Source of the DNA: Clostridiales bacterium
GTDB taxonomy: Bacteria; Bacillota; Clostridia; Saccharofermentanales; Saccharofermentanaceae
Reading direction: 5' to 3'
NCBI GenBank assembly: GCA_017561715.1
Contig: JAFZBN010000012.1
Location: forward strand, 1-64,000
Length of the DNA stretch: 64,000 bases
The translations under genes and the position numbers were made by a program. The notes under the pieces are model-generated. The model was not told the origin of the DNA, searched no databases, and saw only the letters and a program-made list of their open reading frames with translations. Of this stretch, positions 34,186-41,673 are shown piece by piece. Position 1 is the first letter of the stretch. The number at the start of each line of letters is the position of its first letter.

Positions 34186-35115
34186 TCACTCAAAAAGCGG
34201 TGTCGAGAAATATCTCTCGGCAGTATCCGGAAGGACGGTAACGACGGTCTTTCCTTTTCCGAGCTTCTTTGCCATGGCGATCGCCGCAGCGACATTGGAA
34301 CCGGAAGAGATACCGCACATCAGGCCTTCCTTACGAGCCAGATCCTTCGCTGTTTCCAGAGCCGCTTCGTCAGATACGACATATACATCTTCGTAGATCT
34401 CGGTGTTGAGGTTCTCCGGGATCAATCCGTCGCCGATGCCCATCTGCAGGTGGGAACCGATGTTACCGCCGGCAAGGATCGCCGCGTTTTCCGGCTCGAC
34501 TGCCCAGATCGTGATGCCCGGGTTCTGAGCTTTCAGAACTTCACCGATACCGGACAGGGTTCCGCCCGTGCCGATGCCTGCGCAGAATCCGTCGATCGGA
34601 CCTGCGACCTGCTCTAAGATCTCGACGCCTGTGTGATGGCGGTGGACCATCGGGTTGGCGGGGTTCGTGAACTGCTGCGGAACAAATACGTTCGGATCTT
34701 CCGCGGCCATCTTTTCAGCAAGCTTCAGGCACTCGTCGATCGCTTTTCCGATATCGCCGTCATCGTGGATGAGCTTGACTTCCGCGCCGTAGTGCTCAAC
34801 GAGGTAGCGGCGTTCGCATGAAACGGAGTCCGGCATGATGATGATCGTCTTATAGCCTCTGACAGCTCCGACCAGCGCAAGTCCGATACCCTGATTTCCG
34901 GATGTCGGCTCGACAATGATCGTATCTTTCGTGATCTTGCCGTCCTTTTCCGCCTGCTCGATCATGTTCAAAGCGGTTCTGGTCTTAATGGATCCGCCGA
35001 CGTTTAAGCCTTCATATTTTACGAGGACACGTGCCGAATCCTCACCTACCATGCGGGAGGAGAGCTCGATCATCGGCGTATGTCCGACTGCTTCCAATAC
35101 ATTCTTATAAACCAT
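34186..35115 (-). CDS. cysK: Cysteine synthase family (O-acetylserine sulfhydrylase-like)
   Basis: The 309-residue PLP enzyme has the family fold. The PLP lysine is in NVGGSIKTRTALNMI, the phosphate loop is GIGTGGTLSG, and SSGSNVAAA is near the C-terminus. The substrate loop reads TSGNQGIGLA where the family usually has TSGNTGIGLA. GlySer before the lysine resembles the cystathionine-beta-synthase branch as much as CysK. It most likely makes cysteine from O-acetylserine and sulfide. The ribosome site is weak (AGGA). The promoter diverges from the speD promoter. Confidence 0.85.
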   Translation of the reverse strand: MVYKNVLEAVGHTPMIELSSRMVGEDSARVLVKYEGLNVGGSIKTRTALNMIEQAEKDGKITKDTIIVEPTSGNQGIGLALVGAVRGYKTIIIMPDSVSCERRYLVEHYGAEVKLIHDDGDIGKAIDECLKLAEKMAAEDPNVFVPQQFTNPANPMVHRHHTGVEILEQVAGPIDGFCAGIGTGGTLSGIGEVLKAQNPGITIWAVEPENAAILAGGNIGSHLQMGIGDGLIPENLNTEIYEDVYVVSDEAALETAKDLARKEGLMCGISSGSNVAAAIAMAKKLGKGKTVVTVLPDTAERYFSTPLFE

Positions 35116-35195
35116 TTTCTATCCTGCTTTCTAAGGGGAAACCCCAAAGAGTAATTACCCTATTGACCTTAGGTCGTGAGGGCAAATGCTCTACT

Positions 35196-35224
35196 ATTTT
35201 ATATCCCGATCGACCTTCGCGCAA
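35196..35224 (-). promoter_or_regulatory. cysK promoter
   Basis: TTGCGC (35219-35224) and TAAAAT (35196-35201) on the minus strand are 17 bases apart. Downstream, in the 80-base leader, lies the dyad GACCTTAGGTC (35165-35175), a possible operator. Confidence 0.5.
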
Positions 35225-35242
35225 GAAAAACACCGAAAACTA

Positions 35243-35271
35243 TTGCAAAGTCTAGCTATCCGTGATATCTT
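35243..35271 (+). promoter_or_regulatory. speD-speA promoter
   Basis: TTGCAA (35243-35248) and TATCTT (35266-35271) are 17 bases apart, back to back with the cysK promoter. They would start a leader of about 255 bases. Confidence 0.5.
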
Positions 35272-35288
35272 TTTGTCATTGCGGCGAG

Positions 35289-35319
35289 TGCCGAAGCGGC
35301 AGTTTTTTCAAGGACTGCC
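35289..35319 (+). promoter_or_regulatory. Candidate terminator/antiterminator in the speD leader
   Basis: TGCCG (35289-35293) pairs with CGGCA (35297-35301), followed by G and TTTTTT, an intrinsic-terminator shape. GGCAGT (35298-35303) can instead pair with ACTGCC (35314-35319), excluding the first stem. This mutual exclusion suggests attenuation. Confidence 0.45.
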
Positions 35320-35394
35320 TTATTGAGTGGGAAGTAAGAATTCCCTTAATGTTTATAAGTTGGTTACTTTATAACCAAAGGAAGCGCTTCGATC

Positions 35395-35465
35395 AGAGGT
35401 GTGAGGACGCGACCTGACTTGTGAATAATCAATAAGAGTGCGATGAGCTTTGGCACAGGACCTCT
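35395..35465 (+). ncRNA. Structured part of the speD leader, no known riboswitch class recognised
   Basis: GAGGTGTG near 35395 can pair with CAC-AGG-ACCTC ending near 35463, closing inner elements AGGT/ACCT and GTGC/GCAC. Upstream helices are GGGAA/TTCCC near 35330-35346 and TTGGTTA/TAACCAA near 35351-35371. I could not match it to SAM, guanidine, THF or other classes from memory. It could be a polyamine- or SAM-responsive element, or an incidental fold. Confidence 0.3.
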
Positions 35466-35534
35466 TCTTTTCCGGGCAAAGTAGCCTCGGTTCTTTTATT
35501 CTCAGGACAGGAAAAACGGGAAAGGATGGTTCAT

Positions 35535-36326
35535 ATGGCGCACGAAAAGCTCCGCCTTTATGGCTTTAACAATTTGACCAAATCCCTCAGTTTCAATATT
35601 TACGACGTATGCTACGCCAAGACCGCGCGTGAGCAGAAAGATTATATTGCGTACATTAACGAGCAGTATAACTCCGAACGTCTTACCAAGATCCTCACAA
35701 ACCTCACCGAGATGATCGGCGCAAAAGTACTGAGTATTTCCAAGCAGGACTACGAACCGCAGGGCGCGTCTGTTACGCTGCTCATCGCGGAAGAGTCCAT
35801 GATCCCGCACATGGAAGCAGAGACGGTCGTTGCTCACCTCGATAAGAGCCACGTTACCGTTCACACGTATCCGGAGTACCATCCGGACACCGCTATCGCG
35901 ACTTTCCGCGTAGACATCGATGTCGCTACCTGCGGCGAGATCTCCCCGCTTTCTACTTTGGATTATCTGATCGGAAGCTTCGATTCCGATATCATCACGA
36001 TGGACTATCGTGTCCGCGGATTTACGCGTGACGTATCCGGAAAGAAGATCTTCCGCGACAAGAACATCGTTTCGATTCAGAACTATATCGACAAGAAGAC
36101 TCTTGAGCGCTATGACGCCATCGACATCAACGTCTATCAGGCAAACCTGTACCACACCAAGATGCTCATCAAGGATGTGGATCTGCAGAACTACCTGTTC
36201 AAGACCGATGTCTACGAGATCGCGCCGAAGACCCGACTGGAGATCACCAACAATCTCCGCAAGGAAATGATCGAGATCTTCTCCGGAGACAATGTATTTG
36301 AAGCACCGGAGGAAGAAAACGATTAA
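35535..36326 (+). CDS. speD: S-adenosylmethionine decarboxylase proenzyme (E. coli-type)
   Basis: SpeD makes decarboxylated SAM, the aminopropyl donor for spermidine. The 263-residue proenzyme closely follows the Gram-negative class 1A form: the self-cleavage site is in [14 protein letters not shown], where the Ser becomes pyruvoyl, with the catalytic Cys in [10 protein letters not shown] and [10 protein letters not shown] downstream. Most Gram-positive bacteria carry a shorter (about 120-residue) form, so this longer type is notable. ATG 35535 is eight bases after AAAGGA and preferred over ATG 35526. The arginine decarboxylase starts directly at its stop. Confidence 0.95.
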
Positions 36327-37811
36327 GTGGAAAAGGATTTCCTGAAAAGACAGAGTCGTGCCCCCATCGCCGAAGCACTGGAAGATTACACTTCCGAACG
36401 CGTCGTTCCTTTTGACGTGCCCGGACATAAGCATGGCCGTGGAAATCCCGAACTGACAGACTTCTTAGGCGAGCGCACCATGACGCTCGACGTCAATTCC
36501 ATGAAGCCCCTGGACAATCTCTGCCACCCGGTCTCCGTCATTAAGGAAGCCGAGGAGCTCGCGGCGGAAGCATTTGGAGCAAGAGCCGCTTTCTTTATGG
36601 TCGGCGGCACGACCTCTTCCGTTCAGGCAATGGTATTTACCGTCGCGGCCAGAGGCGACAAGATCATCGTCCCGCGAAATGTCCACAGAAGCGTCATCTA
36701 CGCGATGGTCCTGTGCGGTGCGATCCCGGTCTATGTCGATCCGGGCGCCCATGAGCATTTGGGCATCGCTCTCGGCATGCAGCTCTCCGACGTGGAAAAA
36801 GCGATCATTGAAAATCCCGACGCAAAAGCCGTCTTCGTCAACAATCCGACCTACTACGGTATCTGCAGTGACGTCCGCGGCATCGTAAAACTCGCGCATT
36901 CCCACGGCATGCAGGTCATCGTCGACGAAGCGCACGGCACGCATCTTTCGTTCTCGGAGAAGCTTCCCGTTTCCGCGATGGAAGCCGGCGCGGATATGGC
37001 CGCCGTTTCGATGCATAAGTCCGGCGGATCCCTGACACAGAGCGCCTTCCTTCTGGTCGGTGGCGCCGAGAGTGAGGAGAACAAAGCTCCTCTGATCTCC
37101 CCTGCCTATGTCCGCCAGATCATCAACCTGACTCAGACAACTTCCGGTTCGTACCTTTTCCTTTCGAGCCTGGATCTTTCCCGTAAAAGACTTGCTCTTC
37201 ACGGAAAAGAACTGTTCGACAAAGTCATCGAGATGGCCGAGTACGCCAGAGAAGAGATCAACAGTATCGGCGGTTATTACGCCATCGGTTCGGAGCTCAT
37301 CGACGGGAAGGCGATCAGCGATTTCGACAAGACCAAGCTCGTCATCCACACGCTCCCGGTAGGACTTGCCGGCATCGAGGTCTATGACCTTCTTCGTGAT
37401 GAATATGATATCCAAATGGAATTCGGCGACTTCGGAAACTGCCTCGCGTATCTTTCGGTAGGCGACCGTGTCCGTGACCTCGAGCGCCTCGTAGGCGCGC
37501 TTTCCGAGATCCGTCGTCACTTCGGAAAAGCACCGCTCGTGTCTCTTCCGAACAGCTATATCGCTCCGTCCGTAGTGCTTTCCCCGCAGGAAGCATTCTA
37601 CGCGGATACCGAACATGTCGAGTTTGATTCTTCCGTCGGAAAGATCTCCGCAGAAAGCATCATGTGCTATCCTCCGGGAATCCCGGTCCTGGCTCCGGGC
37701 GAAAAGATCACTGAGGAAGTTCTTGAGTATCTGCGTTTCGCGCAGGAAAAGGGCTGCCAGATCACAGGCGCCGAGGACAGCAGTCTTCGCACGATCAGAG
37801 TCGTAAAGTAA
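36327..37811 (+). CDS. speA: PLP-dependent arginine (Orn/Lys/Arg-type) decarboxylase
   Basis: This 494-residue fold-type I decarboxylase is of the SpeA/YaaO branch. N-terminal VPFDVPGHKHGRG, the PLP-binding region MVGGTTSSVQAM, VDEAHGTHLSF and the PLP lysine in SMHKSGGSLTQSA are present. Arginine is the likely substrate because speB (agmatinase) is nearby, though lysine or ornithine cannot be excluded. The start is GTG 36327 immediately after the speD stop, with GGAGG within the speD end. The pair forms one transcription unit. Confidence 0.9.
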   Translation: MEKDFLKRQSRAPIAEALEDYTSERVVPFDVPGHKHGRGNPELTDFLGERTMTLDVNSMKPLDNLCHPVSVIKEAEELAAEAFGARAAFFMVGGTTSSVQAMVFTVAARGDKIIVPRNVHRSVIYAMVLCGAIPVYVDPGAHEHLGIALGMQLSDVEKAIIENPDAKAVFVNNPTYYGICSDVRGIVKLAHSHGMQVIVDEAHGTHLSFSEKLPVSAMEAGADMAAVSMHKSGGSLTQSAFLLVGGAESEENKAPLISPAYVRQIINLTQTTSGSYLFLSSLDLSRKRLALHGKELFDKVIEMAEYAREEINSIGGYYAIGSELIDGKAISDFDKTKLVIHTLPVGLAGIEVYDLLRDEYDIQMEFGDFGNCLAYLSVGDRVRDLERLVGALSEIRRHFGKAPLVSLPNSYIAPSVVLSPQEAFYADTEHVEFDSSVGKISAESIMCYPPGIPVLAPGEKITEEVLEYLRFAQEKGCQITGAEDSSLRTIRVVK

Positions 37812-37963
37812 GCACTTCGCATGAAACGGAGTGCTTTTCTTTTCGCTCATTGGAAGTGATCCTTCTGATCCGGCTTAATAAAACTTCGGCAATTTCCTTA
37901 ACCGTTTCTTTATCTTCGTTTTGTACAATGACCTCATGACAAGAGAAAGTGAGGGTCATTACG

Positions 37964-38959
37964 ATGCTTACAAAAATCGAAACCAACATGAAAGTATTTG
38001 CCGAGAATTTCAAGGCAGCTAAAAAAGCGTATGTGCTCAATTCGAGCATGGAAGCTTCCGCTTGCGCGGCCGCTTTTATCGGAGAAGATGAGCCGGTAAC
38101 GGTCGACGAACTGAAAGATGCCAAGCACATCCTCAGTCACAACGCGAGATTCCTTTCTACGCTCAGACACGGTAACGCCAGACAGGTCGTCGCCGCGGTG
38201 ATCGCCAAAGATCCGAATCCGGAGATCGCCATGAAGCGTATCGCGGAGATCCATAAGGCGCTCGACAAGAAGTTCTTCAACTCCGACTATCTCGTACTTG
38301 CCGCGACGATCATTTATCAGAACAGCAAGCCGAGCGAATATGACGCGGTAGTCGACAGGACCAGAAAGATCTTTAAGAAACTGCGTGCCGATCATCCGAT
38401 GATCACCGGCCGCGAGGATCTCGCCAACTGTGCCCTGATGGCACTCTCGGGCTACGATCCGGGAAAGATCACGGACACATGTGAGCAGGATTTCCAGTAC
38501 CTGAAGAAGTCTTATGTCTTAAAGAACAAAGTACAGTTCCTCGCGTGCATCACGAGTCTGTTTGACGGCGCGCCGGATGAAAAGGCCGCTGCCATCGAAG
38601 AGACGAGAAAACTGCTCAAGGAGTACGGTGTGCGTTTTGACACCAGCGCTTATTCTATCGTCGGCGCGCTCGCCATGCTCGTAGACAAGGCAGACAGAAG
38701 CCTGGTCTGCGGCCACATCGCAGAAGTCAGCGCCAAACTTAAGAGCGTTCGCGGTATGGGTTCTCTCGGCGCAGGCAAGAAGATCCGCAACATGATCGCT
38801 ACCGCGATCGTGATCGATGCCTATGCAGACGGTATGGATGACAAGATCAAGAACAGCGCGATCTCCGCGATCATCTCCGCGGTCATTGCCGCAGAGATCG
38901 CAGCGATCTGTGCCGCAGCCGCTGCCTCCTCTGCCGCGGCAGCCAGCAGCTCCTCCTGA
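37964..38959 (+). CDS. DUF4003-like protein of unknown function
   Basis: The 331-residue alpha-helical protein resembles the DUF4003 family (FIGEDEPVTVDELKDAKHIL, FNSDYLVLAATIIYQ, DREDL-type repeats of an all-helical fold). The last 40 residues turn into a hydrophobic Ala/Ile segment and an Ala/Ser run (AAAAASSAAAASSSS), which may be a membrane-associated tail. The start at 37964 is preceded by GAGG at nine bases; a longer start at 37949 is weaker. TACAAT at 37924-37929 is a possible -10 box. Confidence 0.65.
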   Translation: MLTKIETNMKVFAENFKAAKKAYVLNSSMEASACAAAFIGEDEPVTVDELKDAKHILSHNARFLSTLRHGNARQVVAAVIAKDPNPEIAMKRIAEIHKALDKKFFNSDYLVLAATIIYQNSKPSEYDAVVDRTRKIFKKLRADHPMITGREDLANCALMALSGYDPGKITDTCEQDFQYLKKSYVLKNKVQFLACITSLFDGAPDEKAAAIEETRKLLKEYGVRFDTSAYSIVGALAMLVDKADRSLVCGHIAEVSAKLKSVRGMGSLGAGKKIRNMIATAIVIDAYADGMDDKIKNSAISAIISAVIAAEIAAICAAAAASSAAAASSSS

Positions 38960-39001
38960 TCAGGGAAGCTGCCTCGACAGGCGCTTTTCAAAAGAAAAAA
39001 G

Positions 39002-39031
39002 AAAGTCCCGGCGGAAATTCCCCGGGACTTT
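39002..39031 (+). terminator. Terminator after the DUF4003-like gene
   Basis: AAAGTCCCGG and CCGGGACTTT form a 10-bp stem followed by TTCCTTT. Confidence 0.85.
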
Positions 39032-39054
39032 TCCTTTGCATATCCGGACATGAA

Positions 39055-39081
39055 AAAAGGTCCTCATGACGAGGACCTTTT
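39055..39081. terminator. Bidirectional terminator before the small membrane protein gene end
   Basis: AAAAGGTCCTC and GAGGACCTTTT are a perfect 11-bp stem with a five-base loop. It serves the minus-strand gene ending at 39105 and backs up the previous terminator. Confidence 0.9.
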
Positions 39082-39104
39082 ATTCGTTAATCGTGTTCGA
39101 TCGA

Positions 39105-39593
39105 TTAAGCCTGCGGAACTTCCGGAGCCTGCGGCTGAGCCGGAGCGCCCTTCTTGAGGCTCTTTGTTACAAAGAAGATAGCAGCGCCAACAGCGATGAT
39201 ACCAAGGATCAGAACGAAGAAGCCGAACTGGTAAGAAACGGACATGTAATCTTCATAGCCCTTGATTTCCTTCTTAGCGTCGGAAACGTCTTTGATAACG
39301 GCGATGAGACCCCAGATACCGAAAGCAGCCATTGCACCAAGAGCACCACTGAGGAACTTTTCCTTATCCAGGCCGAGAACCAGGATTACAACAGTAGCGA
39401 TGGCAAGGAGCAGAAGGAAGATTCCCTGGTGAGCATAATCACCCATCAAAGAAGATGACTCAGATTCGCTCATACCAAACATCTTAACGGTAGCTTTTGC
39501 CTGCGGCAGGAAGCTCGCGAGCAACATAAGGAAGCTGCCAACGAGAACGCAGATCGTTGCCGGATCTTTAAAATCAGGTTTTTTGAAATTCAT
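39105..39593 (-). CDS. Small four-helix membrane protein of unknown function
   Basis: The 162-residue protein has four predicted membrane helices (near 13-30, 55-72, 80-98 and 117-138) and ends in a Pro/Gln/Ala-rich tail (APAQPQAPEVPQA). No family is recognised. ATG 39591-39593 follows AGGAGGGG at a good distance; an upstream in-frame start at 39632 is not supported. A TATAAT box lies at 39631-39636 on the minus strand. Confidence 0.75.
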   Translation of the reverse strand: MNFKKPDFKDPATICVLVGSFLMLLASFLPQAKATVKMFGMSESESSSLMGDYAHQGIFLLLLAIATVVILVLGLDKEKFLSGALGAMAAFGIWGLIAVIKDVSDAKKEIKGYEDYMSVSYQFGFFVLILGIIAVGAAIFFVTKSLKKGAPAQPQAPEVPQA

Positions 39594-39834
39594 AAAATAT
39601 ACCCCTCCTAATGAGATTTTAACAATTTCCATTATACAACAACACTTTTCAAAAAAACTACCCGAAAATCCGATTTATTCGATAAATTGTCATAAAGATT
39701 TGTCGGATTAACGTGGTTTAAAACCCCTTCATTCTCCGAAGTAGTGCAAAATCAGTTTTTAAACGGTCGGAAAATGCGGAAATAAGTTCCTCTACTTACC
39801 ACATGTTATGTTATGCCAAGTGCTTTTAAGGTGG

Positions 39835-39840
39835 TATTAT
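39835..39840 (+). promoter_or_regulatory. Extended -10 promoter for the speE operon
   Basis: TATTAT preceded by TGG forms an extended -10 element. A weak -35 (TTATGC, 39811-39816) lies 18 bases upstream, and the spacer contains GTGCTTTT at 39820. Downstream, CGCGCCG and CGGCGCG form a perfect 7-bp leader hairpin with a 10-base loop (about 39856-39879). The rest of the 317-base gap is featureless. Confidence 0.5.
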
Positions 39841-39910
39841 ATAGATGTTGGTTTCGCGCCGTTTTTCTTTTCGGCGCGCCCTCGAAATCTCGAAAACGAA
39901 GGAGTAGAAA

Positions 39911-40810
39911 ATGGATCTTTGGTTTTCTGAATTTCATACCCCGCACGTCAAGCTCGCGATCAAAGTCGACAAGCAGCTCTATAGCGGCAAGAGCGACTTC
40001 CAGCAGATCGATGTTTTCGAGTCGCCGGAGTTCGGCCGATTCTTAACGCTCGACGGCTACATGATGCTCACGCAGAAGGACGAGTTCATCTATCACGAGA
40101 TGCTGGTCCATGTGCCGATGTGCGTGCATCCCGATGTGCGAAAAGTACTGGTCATCGGCGCTGGTGACGGCGGTGTCGTTCGTGAGCTCACACGCTACGA
40201 AACGATCGAGCATATCGACGTCGTCGAGATCGATGAAGAAGTCGTCAAAGTCGCGAAGGAATATCTCCCCTTCACCGCCTGCGGTTTCGATGATCCGCGC
40301 GTGCAGTGCCATTTCGAAGACGGTCTTAAATATGTCCGTCACCACGAGAACGAATACGATCTGATCCTCGTCGATTCCACCGATCCGTTCGGCCCCGGCG
40401 AAGGTCTTTTCACCAAAGAGTTTTACGGAAACTGCTACACCGCGCTCAAGGAAGACGGCATCATGGTCAACCAGAACGAGAGCCCCTTCTACGCGAACGA
40501 CGCACGCGCCATGCAGCGCGCACACAAGCGCATCCACACGAACTTCCCGATCTGCCGCGTTTATCAGGCGCACATCCCGACCTATCCGTCCGGCCACTGG
40601 CTCTTCGGATTCGCGTCAAAGAAGTACCACCCGGTACGTGACATGCACGCCGCCGACTGGAAAGAACTCGGCATCGAGACAAAGTACTACAACACGAATC
40701 TGCACAGAGGCGCGTTCGCGCTTCCGAACTACGTGCAGAAACTTCTGGAAGCGATGGAAGAGCTTCCGAATAACGACACGACGAATACTCTGGGAGGTGA
40801 GAAAGCATGA
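39911..40810 (+). CDS. speE: Spermidine synthase (aminopropyltransferase)
   Basis: SpeE transfers the aminopropyl group of decarboxylated SAM to putrescine. The 299-residue protein has the N-terminal beta domain (QIDVFESPEFGRFLTLDG) and a Rossmann methyltransferase-like domain with VIGAGDGGVVRELTRY and DSTDPFGPGEGLFTKEFY. It is the first gene of speE-speB and probably the dehydrogenase. It shares a 4-base overlap with speB. Use of agmatine as acceptor, as in some thermophiles, is a possible alternative because the ureohydrolase follows directly. Confidence 0.95.
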   Translation: MDLWFSEFHTPHVKLAIKVDKQLYSGKSDFQQIDVFESPEFGRFLTLDGYMMLTQKDEFIYHEMLVHVPMCVHPDVRKVLVIGAGDGGVVRELTRYETIEHIDVVEIDEEVVKVAKEYLPFTACGFDDPRVQCHFEDGLKYVRHHENEYDLILVDSTDPFGPGEGLFTKEFYGNCYTALKEDGIMVNQNESPFYANDARAMQRAHKRIHTNFPICRVYQAHIPTYPSGHWLFGFASKKYHPVRDMHAADWKELGIETKYYNTNLHRGAFALPNYVQKLLEAMEELPNNDTTNTLGGEKA

Positions 40811-41673
40811 TCGACCGTATCGAAAAGAACTTCTTCGCTCTAAACTGCTCTTACGAAGATGCCGAGGCGGTCCTCTTAGGCGCCCCGTTTGACGGCACCA
40901 CTTCTTTCCGCCCGGGAACGAGATTCGGCCCTTCCGCGATGAGAAATGAGAGTATCGGTCTCGAATCCTTCAGCCCCTATCAGGACATGGATCTCGAGGA
41001 CGCTCCGATCTGCGATTCGGGTGACCTGGACCTTCCTTTCGGTGACGCGGAAAAAGCACTTGCCCTCATCGAAGAAGAAACAAAGACGATCTTAAATGAC
41101 GGCAAGCTTCCGATCATGCTCGGTGGCGAACACCTGGTGTCCTTAGGTGCTTTTCGCGCGGTAGCGGAAAAATATCCGGACGTCGTCGTTCTTCACTTCG
41201 ACGCGCACTGCGATCTTCGTGAAGACTATATCGGATCTAAACTCTCACACGCATGCGTGCTCCGCCGCATCCACGACATCGTCGGCGACGGCAGGATCTA
41301 CCAGTTCGGTATCCGCTCCGGCACGAAAGAAGAATTCGAGTTTGCGAAAACGCACACGAAGATGGAGCGTTTCAGGGCAGATAATTTCGACGAAGTGCTC
41401 GCGCTTCTGAGACTTTCCGAAAAGCCCGTTCCGGTCTATCTGACGGTGGACCTCGACGTACTCGACCCGAGAGAATTCCCGGGAACCGGAACACCGGAAG
41501 CCGGCGGACTTTCCTTCGAGGATCTTCGCATCTGCCTGATGCAGCTTAAGGACATCAACCTCGTGGGCATGGACTTCGTAGAGCTCTCCCCGCCGTATGA
41601 TCAGAGCGGCTGCAGCACAGCACTCGCGCTGAAGATCTTACGAGAGACGCTCATCATGAAATACGGAAAATAA
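40807..41673 (+). CDS. speB: Agmatinase (ureohydrolase family)
   Basis: SpeB hydrolyses agmatine to putrescine and urea. The 288-residue sequence has the dinuclear manganese motifs GGEHLVS, VLHFDAHCDLRED and LTVDLDVLDPREFPG. PPYDQSG, close to the C-terminus, is typical of agmatinases. ATG 40807 overlaps the speE stop. With the upstream decarboxylase it completes arginine to putrescine. Confidence 0.94.
   Translation: MIDRIEKNFFALNCSYEDAEAVLLGAPFDGTTSFRPGTRFGPSAMRNESIGLESFSPYQDMDLEDAPICDSGDLDLPFGDAEKALALIEEETKTILNDGKLPIMLGGEHLVSLGAFRAVAEKYPDVVVLHFDAHCDLREDYIGSKLSHACVLRRIHDIVGDGRIYQFGIRSGTKEEFEFAKTHTKMERFRADNFDEVLALLRLSEKPVPVYLTVDLDVLDPREFPGTGTPEAGGLSFEDLRICLMQLKDINLVGMDFVELSPPYDQSGCSTALALKILRETLIMKYGK

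Follow-up and report, generated by a model that had tools for sequence, protein, structure and literature searches.

The leader of speD in the window (the whole 64,000-nucleotide stretch of DNA analysed here) contains a genuine RNA structure, conserved in evolution, which, judged from its sequence relatives, recurs before polyamine genes in many Firmicutes. We observe by computation the module itself, covariation within it, its association with polyamine genes, complementarity between one of its strands and downstream terminators, and selection that outlasts a natural deletion. The leader is a real and interesting cis-regulatory RNA, and comparison of sequences makes a riboswitch function likely. 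Specifically, we consider it rather probable that it represents one module, a three-way junction, of a large leader RNA of polyamine genes found across Bacillota and that it operates through the switch proposed below. The RNA is probably polyamine-responsive; we infer polyamine binding, the off direction and a translational step in the window.

The polyamine gene directly downstream in the window is speD, which belongs to a cluster at 35535-41673 that continues with an Orn/Lys/Arg decarboxylase gene and two more ORFs. We take the ORFs at 39911-40810 and 40807-41673 to be SpeE and SpeB, respectively, and they served as search seeds under those names. Transcription likely starts near 35278, downstream of a promoter-like element whose TTG.AA and TATCTT letters are kept in 21 of 21 aligned loci of the genus, including two that lack the RNA module. 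The features of the region are as follows.

35243-35271, + strand: promoter-like TTGCAA-17-TATCTT, weak by consensus and absent from the scan's list
35288-35297, + strand: GTGCCGAAGC, 5′ strand of a closing helix of the lineage (partner 35446-35455; 10 bp, minimum-energy fold)
35289-35301, + strand: TGCCG/CGGCA hairpin of the first-pass annotation, pair probability 0.00, judged non-functional
35298-35319, + strand: P0 hairpin GGCAGT/ACTGCC, probability 0.83-1.0; six of six pairs change on both sides in relatives
35320-35326, + strand: P1 5′ strand TTATTGA (partner 35429-35435), probability 0.62, also in the covariance model
35329-35345, + strand: P2 hairpin GGGAA...TTCCC, probability 0.90; three of four pairs covary in relatives
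35352-35360, + strand: P3 5′ strand TTTATAAGT (partner 35417-35425), 9 bp, probability 0.82-0.98
35362-35376, + strand: P4 hairpin GGTTACTTTATAACC, probability 0.98; three of four pairs change on both sides
35377-35416, + strand: variable, lineage-specific insert at the P5 position, found in L002, L003, L007 and L008
35417-35425, + strand: P3 3′ strand ACTTGTGAA, proposed to act as the switch in relatives (from its complementarity to terminator arms)
35429-35435, + strand: P1 3′ strand TCAATAA, from fold probability and covariance model
35434-35466, + strand: P6 (AAGAG...CTCTT), conserved in relatives and absent from the window's predicted ground state
35446-35455, + strand: GCTTTGGCAC, 3′ strand of the closing helix (partner 35288-35297), minimum-energy fold
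35459-35474, + strand: strand predicted to hide the ribosome-binding site (partner 35517-35531), pair probabilities 0.87-1.0
35517-35531, + strand: Shine-Dalgarno region CGGGAAAGGATGGTT, predicted hidden, about 0.00 unpaired versus 0.49 with a shuffled leader
35535-36326, + strand: speD, S-adenosylmethionine decarboxylase (TIGR03331, 400 bits, cut-off 255.8)
36327-37811, + strand: Orn/Lys/Arg decarboxylase, OKR_DC_1 (PF01276, 229.5 bits)

Folding of the leader and covariation among its relatives

As the first-pass annotation had proposed, the speD leader folds strongly: positions 35279-35534 (256 nt) reach −86.5 kcal/mol, compared with −69.2 ± 4.7 for 200 dinucleotide shuffles, none of which is as stable (z −3.67). 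The letters it had named also lie where it had placed them (TGCCGAAGCGGCA at 35289-35301, T6 at 35303-35308, GGCAGT at 35298-35303, ACTGCC at 35314-35319 and CACAGGACCTC at 35454-35464, with GAGGTGTG beginning at 35396). The annotation had the correct type of element but the wrong structure. Of its two competing stems, GGCAGT/ACTGCC (P0, −10.4 kcal/mol) is predicted to form, whereas the terminator-like TGCCG/CGGCA stem (−5.3 kcal/mol) is not. Its closing GAGGTGTG/CACAGGACCTC pairing, said to reach over 180 bases, spans 69 nt, has a predicted probability of 0.00 and falls partly inside the insert at 35377-35416, which is seen in 4 of the 19 module-bearing loci of the genus. The mutually exclusive switch with a closing helix is unsupported, whereas the idea of a structured, sensing cis-regulatory leader for polyamine genes finds good support in phylum-wide covariation and gene association.

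These results also bear on whether the leader is an ordinary stable 5′ UTR, or the terminator-based attenuator of the first-pass annotation, with no special conserved domain. Such a reading would accommodate the good folding of the leader, as well as a pattern scan in which TGCCGAAGCGGCA-GTTTTTT is among three terminator-like sites listed (0.6 expected). However, we rejected an intrinsic terminator at 35289-35308: the hairpin probability is 0.00, and only 7 of 19 genus loci, counted by eye in the alignment, retain a T-run of at least five after CGGCAG, which leaves an early terminator near 35309 unsupported. These observations, together with a covarying module that extends across the phylum, make this reading very improbable.

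The module was traced by several searches. Records located with a pattern derived from the conserved stretch number at least 119 and come from Clostridia, Bacillus, Paenibacillus, Acetobacterium and Acidaminococcus; in all of them, parts of P1, P3 and P6 are fixed by the search pattern itself. A covariance model, R1, was built from 54 sequences and comprises P0, a three-way junction formed by P2, P3 and the closing helix P1, P4 within P3, and P6. A further model, R3, was trained on 51 sequences found by R1 in phylum and class searches, three of them from a sister genus and none from the window's genus. R3 has a sole match in the 64 kb at E ≤ 10, at 35290-35465 (44.4 bits, E 7e-7), which contains hairpin P0 and the three-way junction (P1-P4).

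The first-pass annotation had named a covariance search among relatives as a check, and covariation is present among relatives across the phylum. In the alignment of the 51 relatives found by R1, both sides change in 16 of 31 pairs (82 cells) and 97.0% of cells are paired, with none of 500 shuffles reaching any of five covariation measures; these counts lean towards the model because the alignment was fitted to it. In a MAFFT alignment (A1) that is independent of the model, both-sided change is found in 10 of 31 pairs (54 cells), again with none of 500 shuffles as high. P1 and P3 show little variation among relatives; P3 can be extended to 9 bp, TTTATAAGT/ACTTGTGAA, which is 96.9% paired in relatives with no both-sided changes. 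The helices backed by the relatives are P0, P1, P2, the 9-bp P3, P4 and P6.

Long-range pairing differs between the relatives and the window. In the relatives, a 5′ linker pairs with the loop of P6, with a mean duplex energy of −8.28 kcal/mol for native combinations versus −6.96 for permuted ones (0 of 20,000 permutations), in a test that ignores kinship and covers 42 of the 51 loci, among which the pairing covaries. Nine loci that misfit the P6 pattern (L009, L023, L066, L071, L081, L090, L099, L127 and L167) were dropped. This restricted native-versus-permuted test was used in place of an unrestricted duplex search of the whole region, which returned long spurious duplexes. In the window the linker is deleted, according to the alignment, and a different long-range helix, 35288-35297/35446-35455, is predicted instead. 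Of 19 genus loci, 18 retain the core of this helix, GCCGAAGC/GCTTTGGC, which is one base short in L005, and the GTGCCGAAGC region carries the 3′ remnant (TGCCGA) of a lost module described below. The AAGAG and CTCTT letters of P6 are present in the window and match the covariance model; the helix has a predicted probability of 0.00, and forcing it into the fold costs 13.6 kcal/mol.

To classify the genes downstream of the module, we used six polyamine proteins as seeds on the 164 loci whose downstream region could be read; six further loci misfit the locating pattern. A polyamine gene starts within 700 nt in 156 of the 164: decarboxylase in 50, SpeD in 49, PotA in 31 and CANSDH (carboxynorspermidine synthase) in 26. 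The other eight comprise six that reach a contig edge and two (L101 and L149) that precede a lipoprotein-like ORF. Family models back the gene names, with one example each; the CANSDH example scores 418 bits, under the NCBIfam cut-off of 800.

Three observations lie to the side of this pattern. L101 and L149 carry both the junction and the ldcC module 5′ of the lipoprotein-like ORF, with no known polyamine gene. L145 (5839-6188, − strand) has tandem junction-module matches (45.7 and 32.9 bits) behind a single ldcC module. In a more distant genome, L029 (2312-2491, − strand) gives a weak R3 match 5′ of speD (21.3 bits, E 0.024), perhaps a diverged copy.

The ldcC module and the copies that lack it

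The first-pass annotation had recognised no known class, which holds for the window as scanned by Rfam but not for its relatives, where RF02440 lies directly upstream of the same module. RF02440, “SpF59_sRNA (ldcC RNA)”, is recognised by Rfam 5′ of the junction in both same-genus loci that were scanned, L009 and L020, and in L023 (same family), and genome searches gave matches in 15 genomes of the genus. The Rfam model found no match in the window or in the window's own genome, and our own ldcC model, R2, found none in the window. The junction module in the window matches no Rfam family, and in 20 such loci scanned against Rfam the junction likewise gave no match. RF02440 itself is a 54-nt model of the 5′ module only, typed as an sRNA gene. 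It and the junction-module leaders share a common position and the same polyamine genes, but it covers only the 5′ module. F59 is reported to be a pneumococcal RNA of 82 nt located between SP0915 and SP0916 (PMC3395615).

The two modules co-occur asymmetrically. In a phylum sample of 398 genomes, R1 matches 25 and RF02440 17; compared by eye, each of the 17 RF02440 places has an R1 place on its own strand no more than 14 nt away. In a family sample, R1 matches 59 of 113 genomes and RF02440 49 of 115, with all 49 within the R1 set (also by eye). R2 detects the ldcC module in 126 of 170 loci, and four of the remainder are cut at the 5′ end. The co-occurrence counts indicate that the junction is the constant part of the leader, to which the ldcC module is an optional addition on the 5′ side. 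The window copy is a shortened form, minus the sole part catalogued so far.

We compared the aligned regions upstream of speD in 21 loci of the genus. A very conserved stretch corresponding to window positions 35289-35466 is found in 19 of them and is missing from L021 and L022. Both parts are present in 15 loci, the junction module only in four and neither in two; thus, 15 of the 19 module-bearing loci carry the ldcC stretch, and the window, L003, L007 and L008 do not. The same 15 lack the insert at the P5 position in the alignment. In L021 and L022, the promoter and TGCCGAAACGGCAG-like letters are kept 5′ of speD, with both modules lost.

This series could mean that the window copy is a decaying remnant that no longer regulates, in a genus that is losing the element stepwise. 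Consistent with this, a single genus contains full copies, copies with the junction module only and loci with neither (L021 and L022), and in the window the linker pairing of other lineages is gone and P6 is not predicted to form. However, over 35320-35466 the window differs from L007 and L008 at 1 of 147 columns, whereas the spacer that follows P6 differs at 14 of 52 positions and speD at 49 of 104 fourfold sites. This contrast provides evidence that selection continues to act on the junction even though the ldcC module has been lost. All four module-only species are within 1 of 147 columns of the window in the junction and P6, and all four keep the 10-bp closing helix and the predicted burial of the ribosome-binding site. 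We therefore regard decay as quite improbable.

Terminators, the ribosome-binding site and a proposed switch

An intrinsic terminator lies between the module and the start codon in 97 of 155 loci, compared with 13.8 expected from shuffles. The 5′ arm of the terminator is complementary to ACTTGT, in the 3′ strand of P3, in 44 of 94 loci (shuffled mean 7.3, maximum 12 in 200), and ACTTGT ranks first for such complementarity among all positions of the module. After dereplication, the best position lies one base upstream, with 16 of 43 loci; in 300 shuffles, no position exceeds 11. Allowing any of three adjacent positions, complementarity is found in 21 of 27 decarboxylase, 23 of 31 SpeD, 18 of 20 CANSDH and 2 of 16 PotA loci. 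As read from the sequences, the 5′ leader has a conserved, aptamer-like fold, and the layout of the relatives is that of a riboswitch in which a putative aptamer strand is shared with the antiterminator.

A full copy consists, 5′ to 3′, of a hairpin and linker, the optional ldcC module, P0, the junction (P1, P2, P3, P4 and a variable P5) and P6, often followed by an intrinsic terminator ahead of the start codon. We propose that, at low polyamine levels, the 3′ strand of P3 (ACTTGT) would pair with the 5′ arm of the terminator, so that the gene is transcribed through; at high levels, the junction would fold and keep ACTTGT in P3, allowing the terminator to form and turn the gene off. The off direction is suggested by the genes under control.

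The same conserved elements could instead form a site for a regulatory protein or a trans-acting RNA that controls polyamine genes, rather than a small-molecule riboswitch. Conserved unpaired letters would fit a protein site equally well, and a regulon that spans the gene family fits a protein regulator too. However, three features typical of riboswitch leaders are seen here, namely the size of the element, a second module that is optional and a terminator that overlaps the P3 strand, and we judge a protein or trans-RNA site to be unlikely.

How the riboswitch that we favour would work in the window lineage is a separate matter. There, the 5′ linker and ldcC module were deleted and no comparable terminator was found, with the junction still conserved. 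Specifically, the pattern scan of the window is empty of terminator-like sites from P6 to the start codon; in L078, of the window lineage, our own terminator finder gives a weak candidate. Regulation has probably shifted to the translational level: the ribosome-binding site of speD would be buried by 35459-35474, and the folding of the junction would decide its release. The ribosome-binding site is predicted to be fully paired in L002, L003, L007 and L008, the four loci of the window lineage. Among the other genus loci, 15 of 16 have it 0.47-0.61 unpaired and L013 has it 0.04 unpaired (L011 is outside this count). The translational step is a guess because no cheap competing fold opens the site: no alternative fold that frees it was found in the window, opening it costs 9.9 kcal/mol, and forcing P6 only partly frees it. 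In addition, single-sequence folding may be wrong about the burial. The absence of P6 from the predicted ground state in the window and the weak complementarity in PotA loci (2 of 16) are points against the model, as are the low variation of P1 and P3, the parts of helices fixed by the search pattern in the 119 pattern-found loci, and the two loci (L101 and L149) that precede another gene.

Known polyamine leaders and the place of the module

Polyamine riboswitches have long been sought. In the literature covered, as far as the portions available extend, the sole polyamine riboswitch class described is a rare variant of SAM-I (PMC10853860). This spermidine riboswitch is reported to be a leader before speD, speE, speB or ldcC, turns its genes off via transcription termination when spermidine is present, has a four-way fold and is represented by 13 examples in a few Gram-positive genera (Salvail et al. 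2023, PMC10853860). Both it and the window leader precede speD, but their helices differ. We rejected SAM-I or another known class for the window on the basis of the Rfam scans; across 35100-35600, no SAM family matches up to E 10.

Other structured leaders before polyamine genes are described in the excerpts available, namely odc1 and potE (PMC8632094) and speF (PMC11477304); the odc1 element is headed there as uORF-incorporating and potE as restricted to Veillonella (PMC8632094). These motifs resemble the window's leader in preceding polyamine genes, but no Rfam match of such families is found there. Polyamine terms have no match in the available parts of PMC11109978 and PMC6429828, and no description of the junction module was found in the literature searched, a partial selection that lacks most subscription papers. 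The ligands suggested by the first-pass annotation fare differently: a polyamine fits the whole gene set, whereas arginine and SAM fit some of the genes only.

These comparisons have implications beyond the window. It is possible, although we would put it slightly short of an even chance, that the junction is the core of a widespread and undescribed class of polyamine riboswitch in Bacillota, and that the 54-nt entry in Rfam, labelled an sRNA, is no more than an accessory fragment of it. In that case, full copies would hold two separable sensor modules, and the deletions would show that the junction works alone and can shift from transcriptional to translational control. The element is common, is linked to genes of both polyamine synthesis and uptake, and is big enough for a specific binding pocket. 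It predicts a testable ligand and explains what the catalogued “ldcC RNA” belongs to, and natural deletions separate its two modules.

Two minor observations concern the neighbouring genes. SpeD is present in 37 of 59 related genomes in a search of relatives, and in-frame stops were flagged in speD of L019, L025, L026, L027, L031 and others. Recoding of speD was rejected: in the eight loci examined, a set that excluded the split-match loci G035, G037, G041, G043, G052 and G053, the stops lie at or after the normal C-terminus or just before the start (in L027, one extra stop immediately 5′ of the start codon) and are nothing unusual. In L183 and L184, a c-di-GMP-I riboswitch lies on the opposite strand, about 1 kb from a decarboxylase-associated element.
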